From Merismopedia glauca CCAP 1448/3 (GTDB lineage Bacteria; Cyanobacteriota; Cyanobacteriia; Cyanobacteriales; CCAP-1448): a stretch of 46,489 nucleotides of DNA. How positions within the stretch are numbered: the first letter of the stretch is position 1; every line of letters starts with the position of its first letter. Shown here piece by piece: positions 13,995-21,759 of the stretch. The notes beneath the pieces are model-generated. The model was given only the letters and a program-made list of their open reading frames with translations. It made no database searches and was not told where the DNA came from. Location of the stretch: assembly GCF_003003775.1 (NCBI RefSeq), contig NZ_PVWJ01000027.1:1-46489 (forward strand). The letters run 5' to 3'. The translations under genes and the position numbers were made by a program.

Positions 13995-14993
13995 ATGAAA
14001 GCTATTGTGATGACTGCACCAGGTAAACCTGATGTATTGGAATTAAGAGAAGTTCCTCAACCGACGATTCAAAATCCCTCAGAGATTTTAGTCAAGCTAC
14101 ACGCAGCAGGGGTGAACCCAATTGATACGAAACTGCGTCAGCGAGGAACATTTTATCCCGATCTAATGCCTGCAATTTTAGGCTGTGATGGTGCTGGGGA
14201 AGTGGTTGAAGTGGGTACTGGTGTAGTAAAATTTCGGGGAGGCGATCGCGTTTATTTCTGTCAAGGTGGATTGGGATCTAGCGCTGGGAACTATGCTGAG
14301 TATATAGTAGTAGATGAACGGTTTGTTGCTAAGATGCCTGGTTCTTTGTCTTTTGCAGAAGCGGCAGCAGCACCTTTGGTCTTAATTACCGCTTGGGAAG
14401 CTTTGTACGATCGCGCGCGTTTAGATGCTGGACAGCAAGTGTTAATTCATGCTGGTGCTGGTGGTGTCGGTCATGTGGCAATTCAATTGGCGAAGTTGAA
14501 GGGTGCAAGTGTAGCTACTACAGTTAGTTCTAGGGAAAAAGCCGATCTTGTCCAGGAATTAGGGGCTGATTTAGCTATTTTCTATAAGGAAAGTGATTTC
14601 GTTTCATTAGCTCTTAATTGGACTGGGGGACAAGGTGTAGATGTTGCTTTTGATACGGTTGGAGGAGAACTTTTGGGAGCTACTTTTCCAGCAGTGAAGC
14701 TTTATGGGGATGTGGTGACAATTTTGGAACCAGATCCAAAAACTAATTGGAAGGTGGCTCGAAATAAAAATTTGCGAGTTAGTTTTGAGTTAATGTTAAC
14801 ACCAATATTGCAAAATATTGTGTCAGAACAGCAAGCCCAAGCGAAGATTTTAAATCAATGTGCTAGGTTAATTGATGCAGGAAAGCTAACAATTCAAGTC
14901 AACCAAACTTTTCCTTTGGAAGAAGCAGCACAAGCACATCAACTATTAGAAACTGGTTCAGTGAGTGGGAAAATTGTCTTGTTGATTGGTTAG
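13995..14993 (+). CDS. MDR-family NAD(P)H quinone oxidoreductase-like protein
   Basis: 332 aa from the ATG at 13995, preceded by AAGG. It has the GroES-like N-terminal domain (HAAGVNPIDTKLRQRG) and the Rossmann motif AGAGGVGHVAIQLAK typical of quinone oxidoreductases (QOR, zeta-crystallin). The structural-zinc cysteine loop of classical alcohol dehydrogenases is missing, which favours the zinc-free QOR branch. Probably a cytoplasmic NADPH-dependent reductase of quinones or enones; the substrate cannot be told. It stands alone, 89 bases after the CNNM-type gene with repeats between. Confidence 0.9.
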   Translation: MKAIVMTAPGKPDVLELREVPQPTIQNPSEILVKLHAAGVNPIDTKLRQRGTFYPDLMPAILGCDGAGEVVEVGTGVVKFRGGDRVYFCQGGLGSSAGNYAEYIVVDERFVAKMPGSLSFAEAAAAPLVLITAWEALYDRARLDAGQQVLIHAGAGGVGHVAIQLAKLKGASVATTVSSREKADLVQELGADLAIFYKESDFVSLALNWTGGQGVDVAFDTVGGELLGATFPAVKLYGDVVTILEPDPKTNWKVARNKNLRVSFELMLTPILQNIVSEQQAQAKILNQCARLIDAGKLTIQVNQTFPLEEAAQAHQLLETGSVSGKIVLLIG

Positions 14994-15014
14994 AATATTT
15001 CATGGTTGTATTGA

Positions 15015-15203
15015 ATGCCTACTCTTGCTCAACTCGAGAGTTTATATCGCATCGGCTACCAATTGACATACATCATGCTTCAGCCAGTTCATATGATATG
15101 TGTCGATCGTCGCACTGGTAACGTATACATCTTGGCTGGGTATGACGAAGAGCTTGAATTTCAAATCTTACCTAACGGGGAGTTTGTTGATGAGCCTAGT
15201 TAA
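15015..15203 (+). CDS. Small conserved cyanobacterial protein (DUF6888-like)
   Basis: 62 aa. The pattern LYRIGYQLTYIML..VHMICVDRRTGNVYILAGYDEELEFQILPNGEF matches the small cyanobacterial family I remember as DUF6888. Function unknown. Its end overlaps the start of the next gene by 14 bases. In this family the partner is commonly a DUF6887 protein, as appears here. The high sequence regularity and the partner argue that this is a real gene despite its size. Confidence 0.7.
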   Translation: MPTLAQLESLYRIGYQLTYIMLQPVHMICVDRRTGNVYILAGYDEELEFQILPNGEFVDEPS

Positions 15204-15408
15204 TTATAATGCTATGTCTGATGCTGAATTGAAACAGTATTTTCTCAAACATCGAGGAGATAAAGCAGCTTTTCAAGCTTATTTAGATAGAATCAATCAA
15301 CGTCCACTCAGAATTATTGCAAGTCCTAGCGATCTAGATTTTGATGAGAAGGTTCAAGCAGCGATTCGCCAAAAGTTAGAAGCAGCAAAGAATAGTGGAT
15401 TTAAGTAG
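15190..15408 (+). CDS. Small conserved cyanobacterial protein (DUF6887-like)
   Basis: 72 aa from the ATG at 15190, inside the end of the previous gene; another ATG at 15214 would give 64 aa. I prefer 15190 because family members usually have a few residues before the MSDAELKQYFLKHRGDKAAF block. The first half is that conserved block, the second half a charged helix. The overlap implies translational coupling with the DUF6888-like protein. Two tiny coupled genes look like a toxin-antitoxin pair, but no toxin fold is recognisable and no function is claimed. Confidence 0.7.
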   Translation: MSLVNYNAMSDAELKQYFLKHRGDKAAFQAYLDRINQRPLRIIASPSDLDFDEKVQAAIRQKLEAAKNSGFK

Positions 15409-15456
15409 TCTCGTTTTTGTCCATGAAAAGATACTTTTCAAATCTGGTTGAGGAGT

Positions 15457-16614
15457 TTATTTGAAGATGAATTTACCAAAAGCGATCGCTATTCCTAATA
15501 CTATACTTATTCCTACACTTAACCACCAGACAGATTGATGGAGACGCTCGTATTTTTGCTCGATTAGTTTTAATTTGTTTCGCAGTTCATCTGGTTCGCT
15601 CAACCGAGAATTGTTAGGATTTAAAGATGGTTTTTCTGTGTCTATTTTAGTTTGGGTTAGCTGTTTAACTACCTCCGCACTACTAGTTATTTCTCGTTGT
15701 AGTTCTTGGCGTTGAAAAATTAGTTGAGCGATCGCTTTTTTAGCTTCTTCAATTTCTTTTTGTAAACTTTCTTTTGGGGAACTTGAGTCTAAAGTCTTGA
15801 TTAAGTTTTCCGAAAATTTAGATAGCTGTTCTTTCGCAGATTGCTCATGGAGATGAATTTGCTCTACTTGCTTCATCCCTTGAACTACTAGTTCAGAATT
15901 AACTTGAGTCAGACTCTCTTGAATTTGTTGGTATGCTGATGTAACTTGTTGAAATCTAGTTTCTAGTTCAGTTTTTAATTCTTGATTTGCTTGAAAAATC
16001 TTTTCCTGTTCAGCTACTAAACCCTTGATATACAGACTTTGTTCTTCATTTTTAATAATAATTTGATTGAAAGTTTCTAAGGTTTGATTTTCGATTCTTT
16101 TTAAATTAGAAAAAGCGTGATAGTAAAAATCTTTTAACTCATTAATTAATAGGGTTTGTTCTTGTAATACTTTGTCGGCGATCGCGGGTTTTGAGTGAAG
16201 ATTTTCTCGATTGTTTGCTAATAGTAATTCTAGTTCTACGAGTTTAGTTTGTAAGCGATCGCAGTTTGCTCTAGTTGAGGCAACTTCATCCCTAATATTG
16301 GAAAAATCAGCGATAAAATTAGAGAGATAATCTGCTTGATTGACATCTTTAATCGTCGATCTAAGGGTTTGTTTCAGTTCTCCCAATTCCAGAAATTCTC
16401 TGTGAAAATCTGCTAAGGAAGACTGGATTTTCAGTACTTCTTGATGACGAGATTCCAGATCGGCGATCGCTTCTTGTTGTTTCTGAGTAATTTGTTTGTC
16501 TAATAATTTACCTTTCTCTAAAACTGTATTTCCTAAAGTAATCCCTTCATTAATTTTTGTCCAAAGTTGTTCTAGTTGGATCGCTATATCTAAGTCTGTA
16601 AGTTGTTCCGTCAT
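15457..16614 (-). CDS. Coiled-coil protein with C-terminal membrane anchor
   Basis: 385 aa from the ATG at 16614, preceded directly by an in-frame GTG that could also start it. Residues about 30-360 are almost entirely charged heptad-like helix rich in Q, E, K and L, with no enzymatic motif. Residues about 362-382 form one hydrophobic segment (WWLSVGISIVLGIAIAF) followed by GKFIFK. This is therefore a tail-anchored, mostly cytoplasmic coiled-coil protein. It lies about 44 bases downstream of the RelE-helicase gene on the same strand and is probably cotranscribed with it. I do not recognise the family. A sensor, tether or effector role beside the helicase is inference from position only. Confidence 0.8.
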   Translation of the reverse strand: MTEQLTDLDIAIQLEQLWTKINEGITLGNTVLEKGKLLDKQITQKQQEAIADLESRHQEVLKIQSSLADFHREFLELGELKQTLRSTIKDVNQADYLSNFIADFSNIRDEVASTRANCDRLQTKLVELELLLANNRENLHSKPAIADKVLQEQTLLINELKDFYYHAFSNLKRIENQTLETFNQIIIKNEEQSLYIKGLVAEQEKIFQANQELKTELETRFQQVTSAYQQIQESLTQVNSELVVQGMKQVEQIHLHEQSAKEQLSKFSENLIKTLDSSSPKESLQKEIEEAKKAIAQLIFQRQELQREITSSAEVVKQLTQTKIDTEKPSLNPNNSRLSEPDELRNKLKLIEQKYERLHQSVWWLSVGISIVLGIAIAFGKFIFK

Positions 16615-16658
16615 CACTTCTTTTTATTAACTCCTGAAATACATCTAATTAGACAATA

Positions 16659-18932
16659 TCAATCAACCCAATGGCTAGAATTTACAAAAGATCTAGCAAT
16701 TATTGATTGAGATAATAAAGATACTAAACTACCCGGTTTATTGGCTATTTCTGGAAATGGATAATTTTTGGGAAAAGCTTTAGTTATTTGATGGCGAACT
16801 CTAGCAGCTTCATAAGGTAAATTTTTGGCTGCTAAATCTCTGGCAATACTGTCAATGATTTGGCTATATTGTTCGGGTTCGTTCTCTTTCAGTTCTTGAG
16901 CAATAGATACTGCTTTCCAAGAATGATGCATAGCTCTTAATAATAAACATTGCAAAGGAATATAAGGAGTTTTGGCTAATTCTGATTCCAGATGGCTGAG
17001 AGAATGAAATTGGAGATAAGCGATCGCTTTTTGTTCCCATTGATATAACTGATCTCCCTCAATTCCTGCTAACTCTAAAGCTGAATAAGTATCCCAATAA
17101 ATATATCCACTTTTACAGCGTTTTAATAATAGTTTTTTGACATTATCAGGAATTTGATTCACTTCAATATCACTAGCAACTTCCGTAATCCAACTAATAG
17201 CAATATATGGATCTATTGGCAAACAATTTTTAAAATATCCTCTGCCTACTCGTTCAATTTCAGCCGTAGTTGCTACAATTAATAACCGCGACCTAGCACG
17301 AGTTAACATGGTATACCATTGAAAACTTTCTGCTAAAGATGGTTTACCAGTTCCTGTAAATAAATTAAAAGCAATACAAGCCTCAAATTCTCTCCCTTTA
17401 GCGGCTTCTGCATTTAGCATAATTAAGTTCTCATTTCCTGCACTAGAATGAGGGGAAATTACTTTAATTGCATTGGCTAAATCTCTAAGTAAGTATCTTT
17501 GATTTTCTGGTTGAGTAGTTTCTTGTACTAACTGGCATAAAAAATCCCACGCTTCATGATTAGAGGGGAATTCTAACAATCTCACAGGTTCGCCTACTTC
17601 TATTCCTAATTTGGCTTCCCCAGGTGCGGGTAACTTTCTTCCACCATAGCTTTTAGCAATTTCTAGAAATTGGTTAGCGAACTCTAAAATCTTTTGAGAA
17701 TTGCGGTAGTTATAGCTGAGACAAATCTCTTTTCCTAACTTAAGTTTATCCCAATGAAACCCAGTTGGTTGAATTCGTTGGTTCAGATCTCCTAAGATTA
17801 AACTAGTCGTTTCATGTCCTAAATTTCTCCAGTGTTTACCTAACTGGAATAAAGTAGTAATCTCTGCTAATAGTAAGTCTTGCGCTTCATCCACAATGAT
17901 AATAGTTTGCTGGCGATCGGTAGAAGGTGATGGTAGTTTTTCTTGCAAACTATTAGCCGCAGCTACTCGGCACAAGTAACCATCTAATGCAGATTCCCAC
18001 CAATCAGGTTTAATCTGTTTAAGTACTTCAATCCGTTCTTGATTAGCTTGAAAAAATATTTCTTTAGATAGCTGTGTGCGGGAGTTATCTAAAACAAAAG
18101 CTTGGTAGAGTAAAACATCTTGCATTTCTAAATTAGCCAGCTTGCGTTTGTAGTTATTAGAAACTCTCCTAGCCGCAGTTTTCAAGGCTGATAATTCTTG
18201 TTGTGGCGAAGCAATCTGAGCATACTTTAAGTTACTGTTGAGCCAATTGGGAAATGTCCCCAACCAAAATCCTGGCTGTTTAATTTGTTGCTTCAATTGG
18301 GCATATTTTTTGATGTCTTCTACTAATTTATCGGGAACAATAAAAATAATTTGACATCCTTGTTGATGTAATCTTGATGCCAATAAAGCCGCGCAAACAG
18401 TTTTACCAGTTCCAGGGGCACTTTGCACTAAAAGAGTACCATAATGATTTTGATAATTGCTTAAATTATGCAAGAGATAGTCATAAATTTTTTCTTGTTC
18501 TGAAGTTAAAATTGGGGAGTAGCGATAACCTCCATAAACAAATTGATACCAATATTCTTCTTCCTGAAAATTCCACTGATATTGAGGGGTGTTAGCCACA
18601 TTAACAGCTTCGGAATCGGTAGATTTTAAGGTTTGATAGAATAAGTTAAGATGAGGAGAATTATAAACTTTACGATTTTGCCAAGATTCTCGATAAATAT
18701 CTCGTCGATAGCCAACTTTAATAATAATAATATCTTGCCGATCTCTTTTCCAAACAACTCTTAAATCGCCACTACGAGTGCGGAGTAATCCTTCAAAACC
18801 TTCTAGGGATTTAGTATCGCGTAAGTCATCTTGACTGAGGCGTTTCAACACAATTTGGACTTTGCCAAAATCATCGTGAGATAGTTTTTGTAAATCTCTT
18901 AAAGCTGCCCGAATTATCCTAACGCCAGCCAT
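16659..18932 (-). CDS. SF1 (UvrD/PcrA-like) helicase with N-terminal RelE/ParE-like domain
   Basis: 757 aa. Residues 1-90 have the RelE/ParE pattern: a helical start (ALRDLQKLSHDDFGKV), then GDLRVVWKRDRQDIIIIKVGYRRDIYRE, the strand-turn-strand end of that toxin superfamily. A linker with aromatic residues leads to an SF1 core with APGTGKT (172-178), DEAQD (348-352), motif III GDLNQRIQP, motif IV YNYRNS, motif V NAEAAKGREFEA and motif VI LTRARSR (543-549). All helicase motifs look intact. Residues 570-757 are a helical domain I cannot name. No antitoxin gene lies nearby. The downstream partner is the coiled-coil membrane protein. Such fusions exist in databases but I know of no described function; anti-phage defence is a reasonable guess. 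Confidence 0.88.
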   Translation of the reverse strand: MAGVRIIRAALRDLQKLSHDDFGKVQIVLKRLSQDDLRDTKSLEGFEGLLRTRSGDLRVVWKRDRQDIIIIKVGYRRDIYRESWQNRKVYNSPHLNLFYQTLKSTDSEAVNVANTPQYQWNFQEEEYWYQFVYGGYRYSPILTSEQEKIYDYLLHNLSNYQNHYGTLLVQSAPGTGKTVCAALLASRLHQQGCQIIFIVPDKLVEDIKKYAQLKQQIKQPGFWLGTFPNWLNSNLKYAQIASPQQELSALKTAARRVSNNYKRKLANLEMQDVLLYQAFVLDNSRTQLSKEIFFQANQERIEVLKQIKPDWWESALDGYLCRVAAANSLQEKLPSPSTDRQQTIIIVDEAQDLLLAEITTLFQLGKHWRNLGHETTSLILGDLNQRIQPTGFHWDKLKLGKEICLSYNYRNSQKILEFANQFLEIAKSYGGRKLPAPGEAKLGIEVGEPVRLLEFPSNHEAWDFLCQLVQETTQPENQRYLLRDLANAIKVISPHSSAGNENLIMLNAEAAKGREFEACIAFNLFTGTGKPSLAESFQWYTMLTRARSRLLIVATTAEIERVGRGYFKNCLPIDPYIAISWITEVASDIEVNQIPDNVKKLLLKRCKSGYIYWDTYSALELAGIEGDQLYQWEQKAIAYLQFHSLSHLESELAKTPYIPLQCLLLRAMHHSWKAVSIAQELKENEPEQYSQIIDSIARDLAAKNLPYEAARVRHQITKAFPKNYPFPEIANKPGSLVSLLSQSIIARSFVNSSHWVD

Positions 18933-19122
18933 AAATCAATCCCAGACTGAATCTTGAAAACTGCGATCAACCCTCTAATTAACTAGTTTAAACTGCGATT
19001 GAGCCAAACGGGGGATATCAACATCTTCTCACCTGAATAGGATGAGAACTAGTAAATCAGGACTAAGGCTATGGCAAAATGGAAAGCAGTCAATAAGATA
19101 AAATAACTATAGGTAATTGCAA

Positions 19123-20235
19123 GTGAGTCTAACCGCCGCAGCGCCATCTACTAAACGTCGTCCAGTTTTTCCATTTACAGCTATAGTCGGTCAAGAGGAA
19201 ATGAAACTGGCATTATTGCTCAATACCATCGATCCTTACATTGGCGGCGTGATGATTATGGGTGATCGCGGTACTGGCAAATCTACCACGATTCGGGCAC
19301 TAGCTGATGTTTTACCAGAAATTGACGTGGTAGCCAACGATCCTTTTAACAGCCATCCTGAAGATGGTGATTTGATGAGTGATGAAGTCAGACAACAAGC
19401 GCAACAAGGTATCTCACTACCTGTAGCCCAGAAAAAGGTGCCAATGGTAGACTTACCCTTGGGAGCGACAGAAGATAGAGTTTGTGGGACAATTGATATT
19501 GAAAAAGCCCTATCGGAAGGGGTGAAAGCTTTTGAACCAGGTTTGCTGGCTAAAGCCAATCGAGGTATTCTCTATGTAGACGAAGTGAACCTGCTCGATG
19601 ACCACTTAGTGGATGTTTTGCTTGATTCGGCGGCTAGCGGTTGGAATACAGTAGAAAGAGAAGGTATTTCGATTCGTCACCCAGCTAGATTCGTCTTAGT
19701 CGGTTCTGGCAACCCAGAAGAAGGGGAATTGCGTCCCCAATTGCTCGATCGCTTTGGAATGCACGCCGAAATCCGCACGGTGAAGGAACCCAAGCTGCGG
19801 GTAGAAATTGTGGAGCAAAGAGCCGAATTTGACCGCAATCCTGAAGATTTTGTCAGCAAAAACCAGCAAGAGCAAGAAGAACTGCAACAAAAGATCGTCA
19901 AAGCCCAAAATTTGCTACCTTCAGTTAATCTGGATTACGACCTACGAGTAAAAATCTCTCAGGTATGTTCGGAATTGGACGTAGACGGCTTGCGGGGTGA
20001 CATTGTGACAAATCGAGCCGCCAAAGCGATCGCTGCCTTAGAAGGTCGTCAGGAGGTCACTGTAGATGATATCCGTCGCGTCATTACCTTGTGTTTGCGC
20101 CACCGCTTGCGGAAAGATCCTCTAGAGTCAATTGATTCTGGCTATAAGGTAGAAAAAGTCTTTAGTCGGGTATTCGGCTTAGAAATGGTGGAAGATACAG
20201 CTAATACCAACGGCGTGCGAACTGGGGTGAGGTAA
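19123..20235 (+). CDS. chlI: Magnesium chelatase ATPase subunit ChlI
   Basis: 370 aa from the GTG at 19123, nine bases after AGG; a TTG at 19117 is the alternative. AAA+ features are clear: Walker [10 protein letters not shown], Walker [12 protein letters not shown], sensor 1 [11 protein letters not shown] and the arginine finger region LLDRFGMH. With ChlD and ChlH it inserts magnesium into protoporphyrin IX, the first committed step of chlorophyll synthesis. Divergent from the helicase gene across 190 bases, and convergent with the next gene with only 11 bases between stops. Length is normal for the family. Confidence 0.97.
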
Positions 20236-20246
20236 AACTGATTATT

Positions 20247-20612
20247 TCATGTTGAGAGATGATCTAGATCTAGGCGATCGCTCTCAACATACTCTTTGGC
20301 TGTTATATCTTCTAAAGATACTACCAAAGCTTCTATTGACTGGAATCGTCCAGATTCAGGGAGCAATTTCAACCATTGTTCGAGAAGTCGATCCCATCCC
20401 ACACCTTGAAATTGGTTTTGTTCCTCTTCTCTAATAAACCAAAACATTAGTTCAATTTCATCAGCATTCCAAGAAGGAGACGCACGTACTTTAATTTCAC
20501 GTAGAGCGCGCAGTGCTTCTCCTTCAGAGCTTGATTTATTATGCTTATCTTGCATTCGATTCTGAAGCTTTTCTGCCAATTTAATAAAATCATCAGGAAA
20601 AGCAAATCTCAC
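20247..20612 (-). pseudogene. C-terminal part of a split gene (continues the QTCDI protein)
   Basis: 121 codons from a GTG at 20612, in the same reading frame as the upstream part. Between the TAA at 20649-20651 and this GTG the frame stays open and reads LRALGEALARKR, continuing smoothly into VRFAFPDDF. No ATG and no ribosome site are visible. The simplest reading is that 21086-20247 was one gene of about 279 codons, cut by a single nonsense change at codon 146 (for example GAA or CAA to TAA). Visible content: KRVRFAFPDDF, then KHNKSS and a strand-rich region ALREIKVRASPSW. Function unknown. Sequencing error or recoding cannot be excluded. Confidence 0.65.
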
Positions 20613-20648: not shown

Positions 20649-21086
20649 TTATTCATCATTTCGACATCCCGATGTACGTTCCCATGCAGCAACGACAGCT
20701 TTTTCTACTGTCATCACGCGATCGAGATCTGCAACTAGATTAAGCTCGGCAATTCCTGGAATATAAGCATACTGAGGTCGTCTACTTTTTTGAATCTCAG
20801 ACAATAGTTGTATCTCAACCTGAAAAAGAGGGGCAACTTCTATAAACGGACGCTGTTTACAACTGCGAACAATATCGCAAGTTTGGGTAATTACAACTAA
20901 ACCTGGAACCTCATCCTCTGCAAGATCGATTCCTTCTCTTGCAGCTTCTTCAGATGCCTGTGTCAAAGGTTGATGAGGATTGCAACGTTGGACAAAGAAA
21001 TGTTCTCCAAGCACACAATCCCCCTGACACCATTGCTTGAGAGCAGCATCTACTTCCTCAATCCAAGTATCGTCTTCATTTTCCAC
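20649..21086 (-). CDS. QTCDI-motif protein, N-terminal part (gene split by TAA)
   Basis: 145 codons from the GTG at 21086, overlapping the end of the HTH gene by 11 bases. It has six cysteines (20, 24, 35, 70, 76, 141) and the motif Q68-T-C-D-I-V-R-S-C76 after a hydrophobic strand VPGLVVIT. The C20-C24-C35 spacing could bind metal. I do not recognise a named family, although proteins with VxxQTCDIxR occur sporadically in bacterial accessory regions. The frame stops at TAA 20649-20651 and resumes at once (see 20247-20612). Third gene of the TIGR04255-HTH operon, translationally coupled by overlap. Confidence 0.7.
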   Translation of the reverse strand: MENEDDTWIEEVDAALKQWCQGDCVLGEHFFVQRCNPHQPLTQASEEAAREGIDLAEDEVPGLVVITQTCDIVRSCKQRPFIEVAPLFQVEIQLLSEIQKSRRPQYAYIPGIAELNLVADLDRVMTVEKAVVAAWERTSGCRNDE

Positions 21087-21759
21087 TGCTATTTTTGCGA
21101 CTCCTTACAGATCTAGCAGGTTTGGATCGTCCAACTTCCCGGTGAATAGGCTCTTGTAAAGCATCAACTAGATCTGCTGGATTTAATGGTCTACGTGAAG
21201 CACGAGCATCTTCAGATAAAGGTTTAAGTTGTGGTCTAGGAGGTGCATTACCTACCCCAACAATTCTTTTTACTTCTTCGTATTTACCAGCCACTAATAA
21301 ATCAAACGGCAGTGTTCCATCACTACTATTCGTGAATAATACATTGCGATTCAGACTGGCACTACCTCGATTGATGTATTTAATAGCATCTAACAATCGG
21401 TTGAGATGTTCTTCATTAAAACTATTTAATGGTTGTCCACTTGCCCAAAAATGAAGACTTCTACGTGAAACATTAAAAAGTTTAGCAAGCTGCTCCCAAG
21501 TTAATCCGCTCAATCTTCTCAGTTCGTTCAAAGCTTTTTGCGTTACTTCTGTAGAACTGATTGAAGGTAGAGTAACCCCACTTGTTGTCATATCTAAAGC
21601 TGCTAATAGATATCCCTGAACATTTGTTATGGAAGTACTGGTGCTGGGAGCTATTAAAGTTCTCGAATAAGTAACCGGATTAGTCTTAAAATTACCCATA
21701 GCTCCAAGTGCAGAAGTACTAGATAATCTATCAAGCTTTCTATCTAAAAAAGTATTCAT
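21076..21759 (-). CDS. Helix-turn-helix DNA-binding protein
   Basis: 227 aa. A low-complexity Ser/Thr-rich head (1-70) precedes an XRE-like helix-turn-helix at about 75-112 (LNELRRLSGLTWEQLAKLFN, then VSRRSLHFWASGQP). The next part, LNRLLDAIKYI...DGTLPFDLLVAGKYEEVKRIVG (about 119-168), recalls the partner-binding tail of Xre/MbcA-type antitoxins. A basic, Arg/Lys-rich C-terminus follows. The ATG overlaps the TGA of the TIGR04255 gene by four bases (ATGA), and its own stop overlaps the next gene, so the three are translationally coupled. Probably the operon's autorepressor, acting at the palindrome 22610-22625. An antitoxin role is possible but unproven. Confidence 0.82.
   Translation of the reverse strand: MNTFLDRKLDRLSSTSALGAMGNFKTNPVTYSRTLIAPSTSTSITNVQGYLLAALDMTTSGVTLPSISSTEVTQKALNELRRLSGLTWEQLAKLFNVSRRSLHFWASGQPLNSFNEEHLNRLLDAIKYINRGSASLNRNVLFTNSSDGTLPFDLLVAGKYEEVKRIVGVGNAPPRPQLKPLSEDARASRRPLNPADLVDALQEPIHREVGRSKPARSVRSRKNSSGK

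Follow-up and report, generated by a model that had tools for sequence, protein, structure and literature searches.

We report a two-gene unit in a 46,489-nucleotide stretch of DNA from the cyanobacterium Merismopedia glauca CCAP 1448/3 (assembly GCF_003003775.1, contig NZ_PVWJ01000027.1, positions 1 to 46,489), which we call the window. The first gene encodes a 757-residue protein in which a RelE-fold domain is fused to a complete UvrD-like superfamily 1 (SF1) helicase, and the second encodes a coiled-coil protein. An open reading frame (ORF) check places both on the minus strand, which was unstated in a preliminary description of this DNA made from the sequence alone. The pairing of the two genes is real and far above chance: after the helicase, a same-strand coiled-coil gene is found in 51/51 loci where the contig continues past the helicase. 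We read the pair as a two-protein conflict module, with a rough probability of 45%. A conflict role, be it defence or addiction, is the likeliest one, though unproven, and as a pair the unit is seemingly unreported.

Results

The fusion gene lies at 16659..18932 (minus strand) and begins with ATG. Its RelE-fold N-terminal domain comprises residues 1-85 (18678..18932, minus strand). The preliminary description had assigned the first ~90 residues to the RelE/ParE type, and modelling, Foldseek, VIA structural comparison and profile searches bear this out over residues 1-82; residues 1-95, whose modelling it had proposed as a check, do model as RelE. The AlphaFold2 (AF2) model of the isolated domain has predicted local distance difference test (pLDDT) scores of 86-96 in blocks spanning residues 1-80, and residues 1-82 of the fusion match T. 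thermophilus RelE (2khe) with a VIA Z of 12.3 (81 residues, 1.9 Å), the RelE/ParE structural matches including 2khe, 3g5o, 4fxe and 9g12. With Foldseek, the isolated domain model matches 18 PDB chains at E<=0.001 (E 9.5e-6 to RelE), exclusively from toxin-antitoxin entries, namely RelE, YoeB, YafQ, ParE2, PrpT and an S. pneumoniae module of a type not named in the table. A profile built from 12 homologous N-termini and run against PDB sequences finds Rv2866 (E 2.7e-6) and E. coli RelE (E 8.7e-5). The Pfam family PF05016 scores 17.9 bits on the window N-terminus, under the gathering cutoff of 23, and matches 3/12 of the homologous N-termini at E<=0.1, so the RelE fold is not obvious from Pfam; the sensitive profile and fold tests place the domain in the RelE superfamily despite this score.

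By profile alignment, R58, R76 and Y80 of the fusion correspond to R61, R81 and Y87 of E. coli RelE. The available passages of the mutational work state that R61A, R81A or Y87A reduces cleavage by E. coli RelE and that K52A and K54A have no significant effect (PMC2807027), and that the equivalent R65, R85 and Y89 of M. tuberculosis RelE1 are likewise required (PMC12620021). In the fusion family, each of the three residues is kept in 47/47 full-length homologues, including a diverged subfamily of ~890 residues (loci L046, L047 and L049). This full-length set was obtained from 67 helicase ORFs, of which 58 remained after duplicate removal and 47 were over 650 residues long. Duplicates were sequences contained in another or of the same length with <2% difference, and close strains are still among the 47; thinning to <80% identity leaves 26 loci, with the ~890-residue group set aside. 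The RelE domain has the complete RelE catalytic residue set, and its ribonuclease activity is putative.

Two trivial explanations of the domain were considered. A chance or artefactual fusion is ruled out, as the 47 full-length homologues carry these domains in one open frame and in the same order, and a decayed remnant is ruled out for the general case by the invariant catalytic set and a low ratio of nonsynonymous to synonymous substitution rates (dN/dS). Over 36 pairs, the RelE segment has a median dN/dS of 0.062, a value that mostly describes Calothrix, to which 28 of the 37 printed pairs belong. A further, stand-alone RelE/ParE toxin ORF (PF05016, 32.5 bits) is present between helicase and partner at L039:11376-11651, and none is listed at this place in the near-identical L040.

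The UvrD-like SF1 helicase core spans residues 141-578 (17199..18512, minus strand), with Walker A K177, DEAQD at 348-352 and R545. The AF2 model of the full protein, with a mean pLDDT of 81.7, matches UvrD with a Z of 24.1 (4c2t, 391 residues within 142-578, 4.0 Å); other VIA matches are Rep (Z 22.7), HelD (21.9) and SLFN11 (20.4), mainly over residues ~121-576. Invariant in 47/47 full-length homologues are K177, D348/E349, Q351/D352, Q385, R410 and R545, while T178 (45/47) and R514 (44/47) are less strict. All SF1 residues examined are intact in the window protein, which has the SF1 motifs on a UvrD core fold, and the domain assignments of the preliminary description are strongly supported. 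UvrD, Rep and HelD share this core fold and these motifs; the window protein adds RelE in front and a helical C-terminus of its own behind. This last region, ~180 residues long (579-757; 16662..17198, minus strand), is predicted to be all-helical in the AF2 model, and contains W581 (47/47), E708 (46/47) and R711 (45/47).

The coiled-coil partner (15457..16617, minus strand) has 386 residues from a GTG or 385 from the next ATG. It follows the helicase after an intergenic gap of 41 bp (16618..16658, minus strand) with AGGAG ahead of the partner start, the distance from helicase end to partner start being 41-44 bp depending on the start codon, which agrees with the ~44 bases reported earlier. The partner is heptad-periodic in a local test (z 6.1 vs shuffles); a global heptad test is not significant (p 0.24), perhaps because phase shifts cancel. 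Local periodicity at z>2 is found in 51/51 partners vs 21/100 background ORFs. The window partner has one hydrophobic segment, a putative tail anchor at residues 362-386 (15460..15534, minus strand; Kyte-Doolittle mean 2.24 over 17 residues), in line with the single C-terminal membrane helix described before. At the other end, residues 7-34 (16516..16599, minus strand) carry a conserved motif, TDxxIAxxLxxLxxxIxxGI, that also occurs 3' of the helicase in other loci.

Across loci the partners are 140-652 residues long, and a C-terminal hydrophobic segment is present in 35/50 complete partners vs 136/856 ORFs. Tail-less partners occur in the Synechocystis and Picosynechococcus copies, in the ~890-residue subfamily (L046, L047 and L049), whose diverged fusions keep the RelE catalytic residues, and in some others. 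Among the latter are L037, whose partner gene, like that of L041, contains masked runs, and L070, from a draft with ~5-fold coverage, where the helicase is intact and the partner gene next to it is broken into two ORFs.

The pairing was assessed on 56 loci remaining after removal of duplicate records, 51 with a partner and five (L075, L091, L095, L096 and L097) where the sequence ends within 116 bp of the helicase ORF, so that they are not checkable. Judged from their titles and query ranges, three of these five (L075, L091 and L096) look like 5' gene parts, with the 3' part and the partner on another contig of the same genome (L094, L093 and L082). The partner starts within -90 to +60 bp of the helicase in 46/51 loci, and the genes overlap in 18. 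A profile of the partner N-terminus (first ~60 residues) draws on 11 of the 51 partners, which match by construction; 35 of the other 40 match at E<=1e-3, and the remaining five are L102 (E 0.0012), L046 (0.0038), L043 (2.9), and L049 and L086, accepted by position and by eye. The 56 loci fall into 24 or 28 genomic contexts under two cutoffs, approximate owing to short contigs; a looser clustering merged 39 loci via paralogues and was discarded. Co-occurrence beyond close relatives, on which the preliminary description had made its proposal depend, is hence found in 51/51 testable loci and 24-28 contexts, and no third gene is common to these contexts.

A plain sequence search with the window partner in the 386 genomes of the phylum returns its own genome and two weak matches only. 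This would have suggested an orphan protein, a possibility ruled out by reading the gene after each helicase. The N-terminal profile at E<=0.01 matches 19 of the 386 genomes, 13 beside the helicase, one as an orphan (G030) and five weakly (G050, G105, G109, G119 and G180, E 0.0056-0.0095; no helicase in the three neighbourhoods read); the partners of G083, G131 and G145 go undetected by it. Family-library searches gave no recognised antitoxin match for the partner, and it has no OLD/TOPRIM match.

The helicase is lost or broken at three loci that retain the partner, and no checkable helicase is without a partner gene. In G030 (L144:9665-10801), a tailed partner (L144:9962-10801) follows a 33-codon remnant of the RelE-helicase start (51% identical, E 0.001), the helicase being otherwise lost. 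On the Synechocystis 6803 plasmid pSYSA (L101:11794-14181), one in-frame stop leaves the helicase in two ORFs, and on the Picosynechococcus 7002 plasmid pAQ6 (L102:7995-10378) it is split by a frameshift; both partners are intact. This asymmetry fits a restraining partner, although three cases are few.

The two genes change rapidly in two lineages. In Microcoleaceae, where two of the five helicases are fragments, the helicase has a dS of 0.05-0.13 and a dN/dS of 0.48-0.85, and the partners have 0.05-0.45 and 0.63-1.27, respectively. Flanking genes there have a dS of 0.21-0.86 and a dN/dS of 0.04-0.29, the helicase dS being under that of every neighbour. At L037, L070, L072, L093 and L094, a helicase dS far below that of the same-site flanks coincides with a high dN/dS, a pattern of local pair exchange and fast protein change. 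In Nostoc/Nodularia, the dN/dS is 0.63-0.72 for the helicase and 0.96-1.61 for the partners, the value of 1.61 including an upstream ORF extension that is possibly non-coding; neighbours are mostly at 0-0.21, with exceptions at 0.32-0.34, 0.41 and 0.64. The excess runs the length of the protein and is smallest in two core regions. Since the genes are open, save the split L070 partner, and the catalytic residues of the full-length proteins intact, we interpret the fast rates in the two lineages as the probable outcome of exchange combined with diversifying selection, as is usual for conflict genes; alternatively, a recent transfer and relaxed constraint would account for them. The partners of three Calothrix strains have a dN/dS of 0.23-0.28.

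We now consider a partner that has been studied experimentally. The pair is flanked by csx3 and type III-B cmr genes in the Synechocystis PCC 6803 and PCC 6714 plasmids, and a CRISPR-associated gene, TIGR03985, is close to it in strain B12; this CRISPR-region setting is seen only for the Synechocystis plasmid copies. The ORF directly before the pSYSA helicase is Csx3-AAA (2.7e-112), and slr7080 is described as the csx3 homologue upstream of CRISPR3 in the available passages of PMC9676260. As slr7080 is csx3 and three ORFs follow in the order slr7081, slr7082 and slr7083, the 377-residue pSYSA partner is, by gene order, Slr7083, the old tags being absent from the record. It matches the partner N-terminal profile at 1.1e-10, carrying the N-terminal motif in the same position after the helicase. 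Like the window partner, Slr7083 follows a RelE-helicase, and unlike it, it has no hydrophobic tail. The accessible text of the Slr7083 paper reports self-interaction, filament nets in vitro, location at the cell periphery and a two-hybrid interaction with the motility protein HmpF; deletion has no defect in the non-motile wild type, and no Slr7083-GFP clone was obtained in PCC-M (PMC7002697). That text calls the protein species-specific and does not contain the word helicase (PMC7002697). A census of type II toxin-antitoxin systems in Synechocystis 6803 does not mention slr7080-7083 in its main text (PMC4963859), and our literature search, at the level of titles, abstracts and passages, found no publication linking Slr7083 to a helicase or describing the pair.

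Among known systems, the closest in architecture is ArmD of ARMADA type II, likewise a RelE-like domain fused to a UvrD-family helicase. According to the passages available (PMC12458937), ArmD and its Walker A lysine are essential for phage protection in the tested type II system, and ArmD sits in a four-gene operon with a BrxHII-like helicase, a PglX-like methylase and a YprA-like helicase, none of which is beside the window pair. These passages mention no coiled-coil partner for ArmD (PMC12458937), whereas the window helicase has one. ArmD-like proteins in our set (L052 and L146-L148) align to the window core only piecewise, at 22-39% identity. Because the other ARMADA genes are absent and the identity is low, the window pair is not filed as ARMADA; we class it as a free-standing RelE-UvrD fusion whose coiled-coil partner is obligate, a variant beside the ArmD fusions. 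The ArmD-like proteins themselves (L052:8525-10582, L146:4728-6836, L147:1707-3977 and L148:9559-11565) form another class of RelE-UvrD fusion. A DEAD/MZB helicase of 1783-1850 residues is close by in L052, L146 and L147, and none is shown in L148; L052 also has GmrSD, SNF2-type and Eco57I-methylase genes, and L146 an Eco57I methylase. The class in L052, L146 and L147 is ARMADA-like, with a gene order unlike that of the published type II.

RelE and RelBE toxins have the same fold and the same R61/R81/Y87 set, the window domain differing in its fusion to a helicase. No antitoxin of a known type is found in the partner or in adjacent genes, as a type II toxin-antitoxin module would have. A RelE-like domain in a multidomain protein is also seen in ribosome-associated, cA4-bound Cami1 (8phj, 8phb; VIA Z 10.1), which we take to be a CARF-RelE effector of type III CRISPR; in the window protein the second part is instead a helicase. 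Gabija has an OLD-family GajA beside GajB, and the window partner is a coiled-coil protein.

The family is patchy, occurring in 16/386 genomes of the phylum (13 full-length homologues and three of the ~890-residue type). Scanning 84,980 species genomes with exact peptide patterns, an approach that can overlook distant relatives, yielded 47 loci; three are weak (L098-L100), and the other 44 are cyanobacterial or, in one case, from Candidatus Tanganyikabacteria of the same phylum. Plasmid records contain eight cyanobacterial copies and two weak UvrD matches in Cetobacterium. In a defence-island test on 98 neighbours from 27 loci, the matches listed cover 25 of 169 PADLOC families and 25 of 129 Pfam families, and many neighbours are metabolic genes. 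The defence-type neighbours traced are csx3 and cmr6 (Synechocystis plasmids), a C5 methylase (L038) and a BrxH/DrmD-like helicase (L043), the last being nearby in the plasmid context L043/L102. The strongest of the remaining hits, to DpdF models for a helicase of RecQ size at L049 and to PD-T4-6 models for a 595-residue protein at L073, we take to be housekeeping cross-hits. A Bpu10I-type enzyme is also among the neighbour matches listed. In both Picosynechococcus plasmids, a small gene is directly upstream of the helicase (L043:11389-11796 and L102:7511-7918), the former with three hydrophobic segments.

Discussion

Reading the pair as a conflict module rests on the RelE fold with its full catalytic set, the constant partner, the loss asymmetry, the analogy to ArmD, the patchiness, the fast dN/dS and the behaviour of Slr7083. 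We infer the ribonuclease, restraint and defence steps of the mechanism, while architecture and pairing are well established. The partner would assemble at the inner face of the membrane, where its N-terminal motif would bind the fusion and silence it or keep it in position. Once the motor engages abnormal nucleic acid, such as invading DNA or transcripts made from it, the RelE domain would be released or activated and would cut mRNA on ribosomes, stopping growth or expression of the invader's genes. The partner would then be tether and antitoxin in one. In a more far-reaching form of this proposal, unlikely as it stands, the helicase would drive an immune ribonuclease that targets ribosomes, and a self-assembling coiled coil would restrain it at the membrane cortex. 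The antitoxin would then be a filament anchored in the membrane instead of a small DNA-binding wrapper, and cytoskeleton-like proteins of the Slr7083 kind would be the halves of such modules that survive.

The preliminary description had proposed an anti-phage or stress-abort system. Its two-component idea is strongly supported, and an anti-phage role is plausible on the grounds that ArmD is essential in ARMADA II, that some copies lie in type III-B regions, that the family is patchy (16/386) and that rates are fast in two lineages. The abort part is not favoured, since the ARMADA mechanism is non-abortive according to its authors in the passages available (PMC12458937).

That mechanism also weighs against the conflict reading as outlined above, and several other results do so too. 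Neither 50,697 phage records nor a pattern search of IMG/VR yielded any copies, and among the matches listed only a few neighbours are defence genes. The RelE segment is constrained in Calothrix, with a dN/dS mostly <0.12 and up to 0.2. The hydrophobic tail is absent in 15/50 complete partners, including Slr7083. Finally, deletion of Slr7083 in PCC-M lowers twitching motility and disturbs cytokinesis (PMC7002697, accessible text), the sole published phenotype of any partner homologue.

The pair may instead be a plain addiction module without a defence role, the RelE-helicase being a selfish toxin and the coiled coil its antitoxin. We regard this as unlikely, even if the partner gene is never missing where it can be checked and is kept where the helicase is lost or broken. 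Co-divergence points the same way at first sight. In a partial Mantel analysis of 14 helicase segments vs the partner over the 26 thinned loci, divergence of the RelE segment tracks that of the partner N-terminal motif over and above the rest of the protein (partial r 0.24, p 0.002). However, residues 400-450 do so equally (partial r 0.26, p 0.002) and residues 140-200 more weakly (r 0.18, p 0.03), and the unthinned version favoured residues 240-340 instead, so that co-divergence can be only a hint as to which segment may contact the partner. Moreover, the partner, at 140-652 residues, has no recognised antitoxin match, and a full helicase motor is superfluous for addiction.

Equally doubtful is a role in cell biology, with the protein acting as an RNA helicase-ribonuclease of the membrane cortex for local mRNA decay or for pilus or motility functions. 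The peripheral location of Slr7083, its interaction with HmpF in the two-hybrid assay and the effects of its loss in PCC-M (PMC7002697, accessible text) would agree with such a role, as would the metabolic genes common among the neighbours and the strong purifying selection in Calothrix. Presence in only 16/386 genomes and a dN/dS of 0.5-1.6 in two lineages do not, and as the deposited 6803 helicase is interrupted, the Slr7083 deletion phenotype may not be the pair's. Least probable is a factor for repair or for rescue of RNA polymerase or ribosomes, with a HelD-/UvrD-like motor and a RelE fold that merely docks on the ribosome: HelD is among the best structural matches and gives a weak NCBIfam hit, but the HelD equivalog scores 30.9 bits against a cutoff of 419, and such a factor would not need RelE catalytic residues conserved in 47/47.

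The pair joins RelE-UvrD defence fusions (ArmD) with filament-forming cyanobacterial coiled coils (Slr7083), whose literatures are apart in the papers searched. Should the partner restrain the RelE domain, it would represent an antitoxin of a new kind, and another reading would open for the phenotypes of Slr7083 in Synechocystis 6803, where the deposited helicase gene has an in-frame stop. The module is compact and present in named laboratory cyanobacteria.

Neighbourhood of the Pair in the Window

No Rfam matches are found across 14900-19300 of the window, and promoter- and terminator-like sites around the pair are fewer than in shuffled sequence. The earlier remark that no antitoxin is encoded nearby holds for the adjacent genes. 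Farther off, beyond chlI and 2.1 kb from the helicase, a 227-residue protein (21076..21759, minus strand) has an Xre-like helix-turn-helix match of 21.6 bits, below the cutoff of 23; the short ORFs 20247-20612 and 20649-21086, between the module and this protein, have no Pfam match. A DUF6887/DUF6888 gene pair adjoins the module at 15015-15408 (plus strand) and recurs only near L073. This pair, a zinc-type dehydrogenase and a CNNM/CorC protein lie downstream on the opposite strand, and chlI (Mg_chelatase and AAA_lid matches) lies upstream, also on the opposite strand. Since the chlI neighbour is common to L068 and the dehydrogenase neighbour to L076, the site of the pair in the window may be old.

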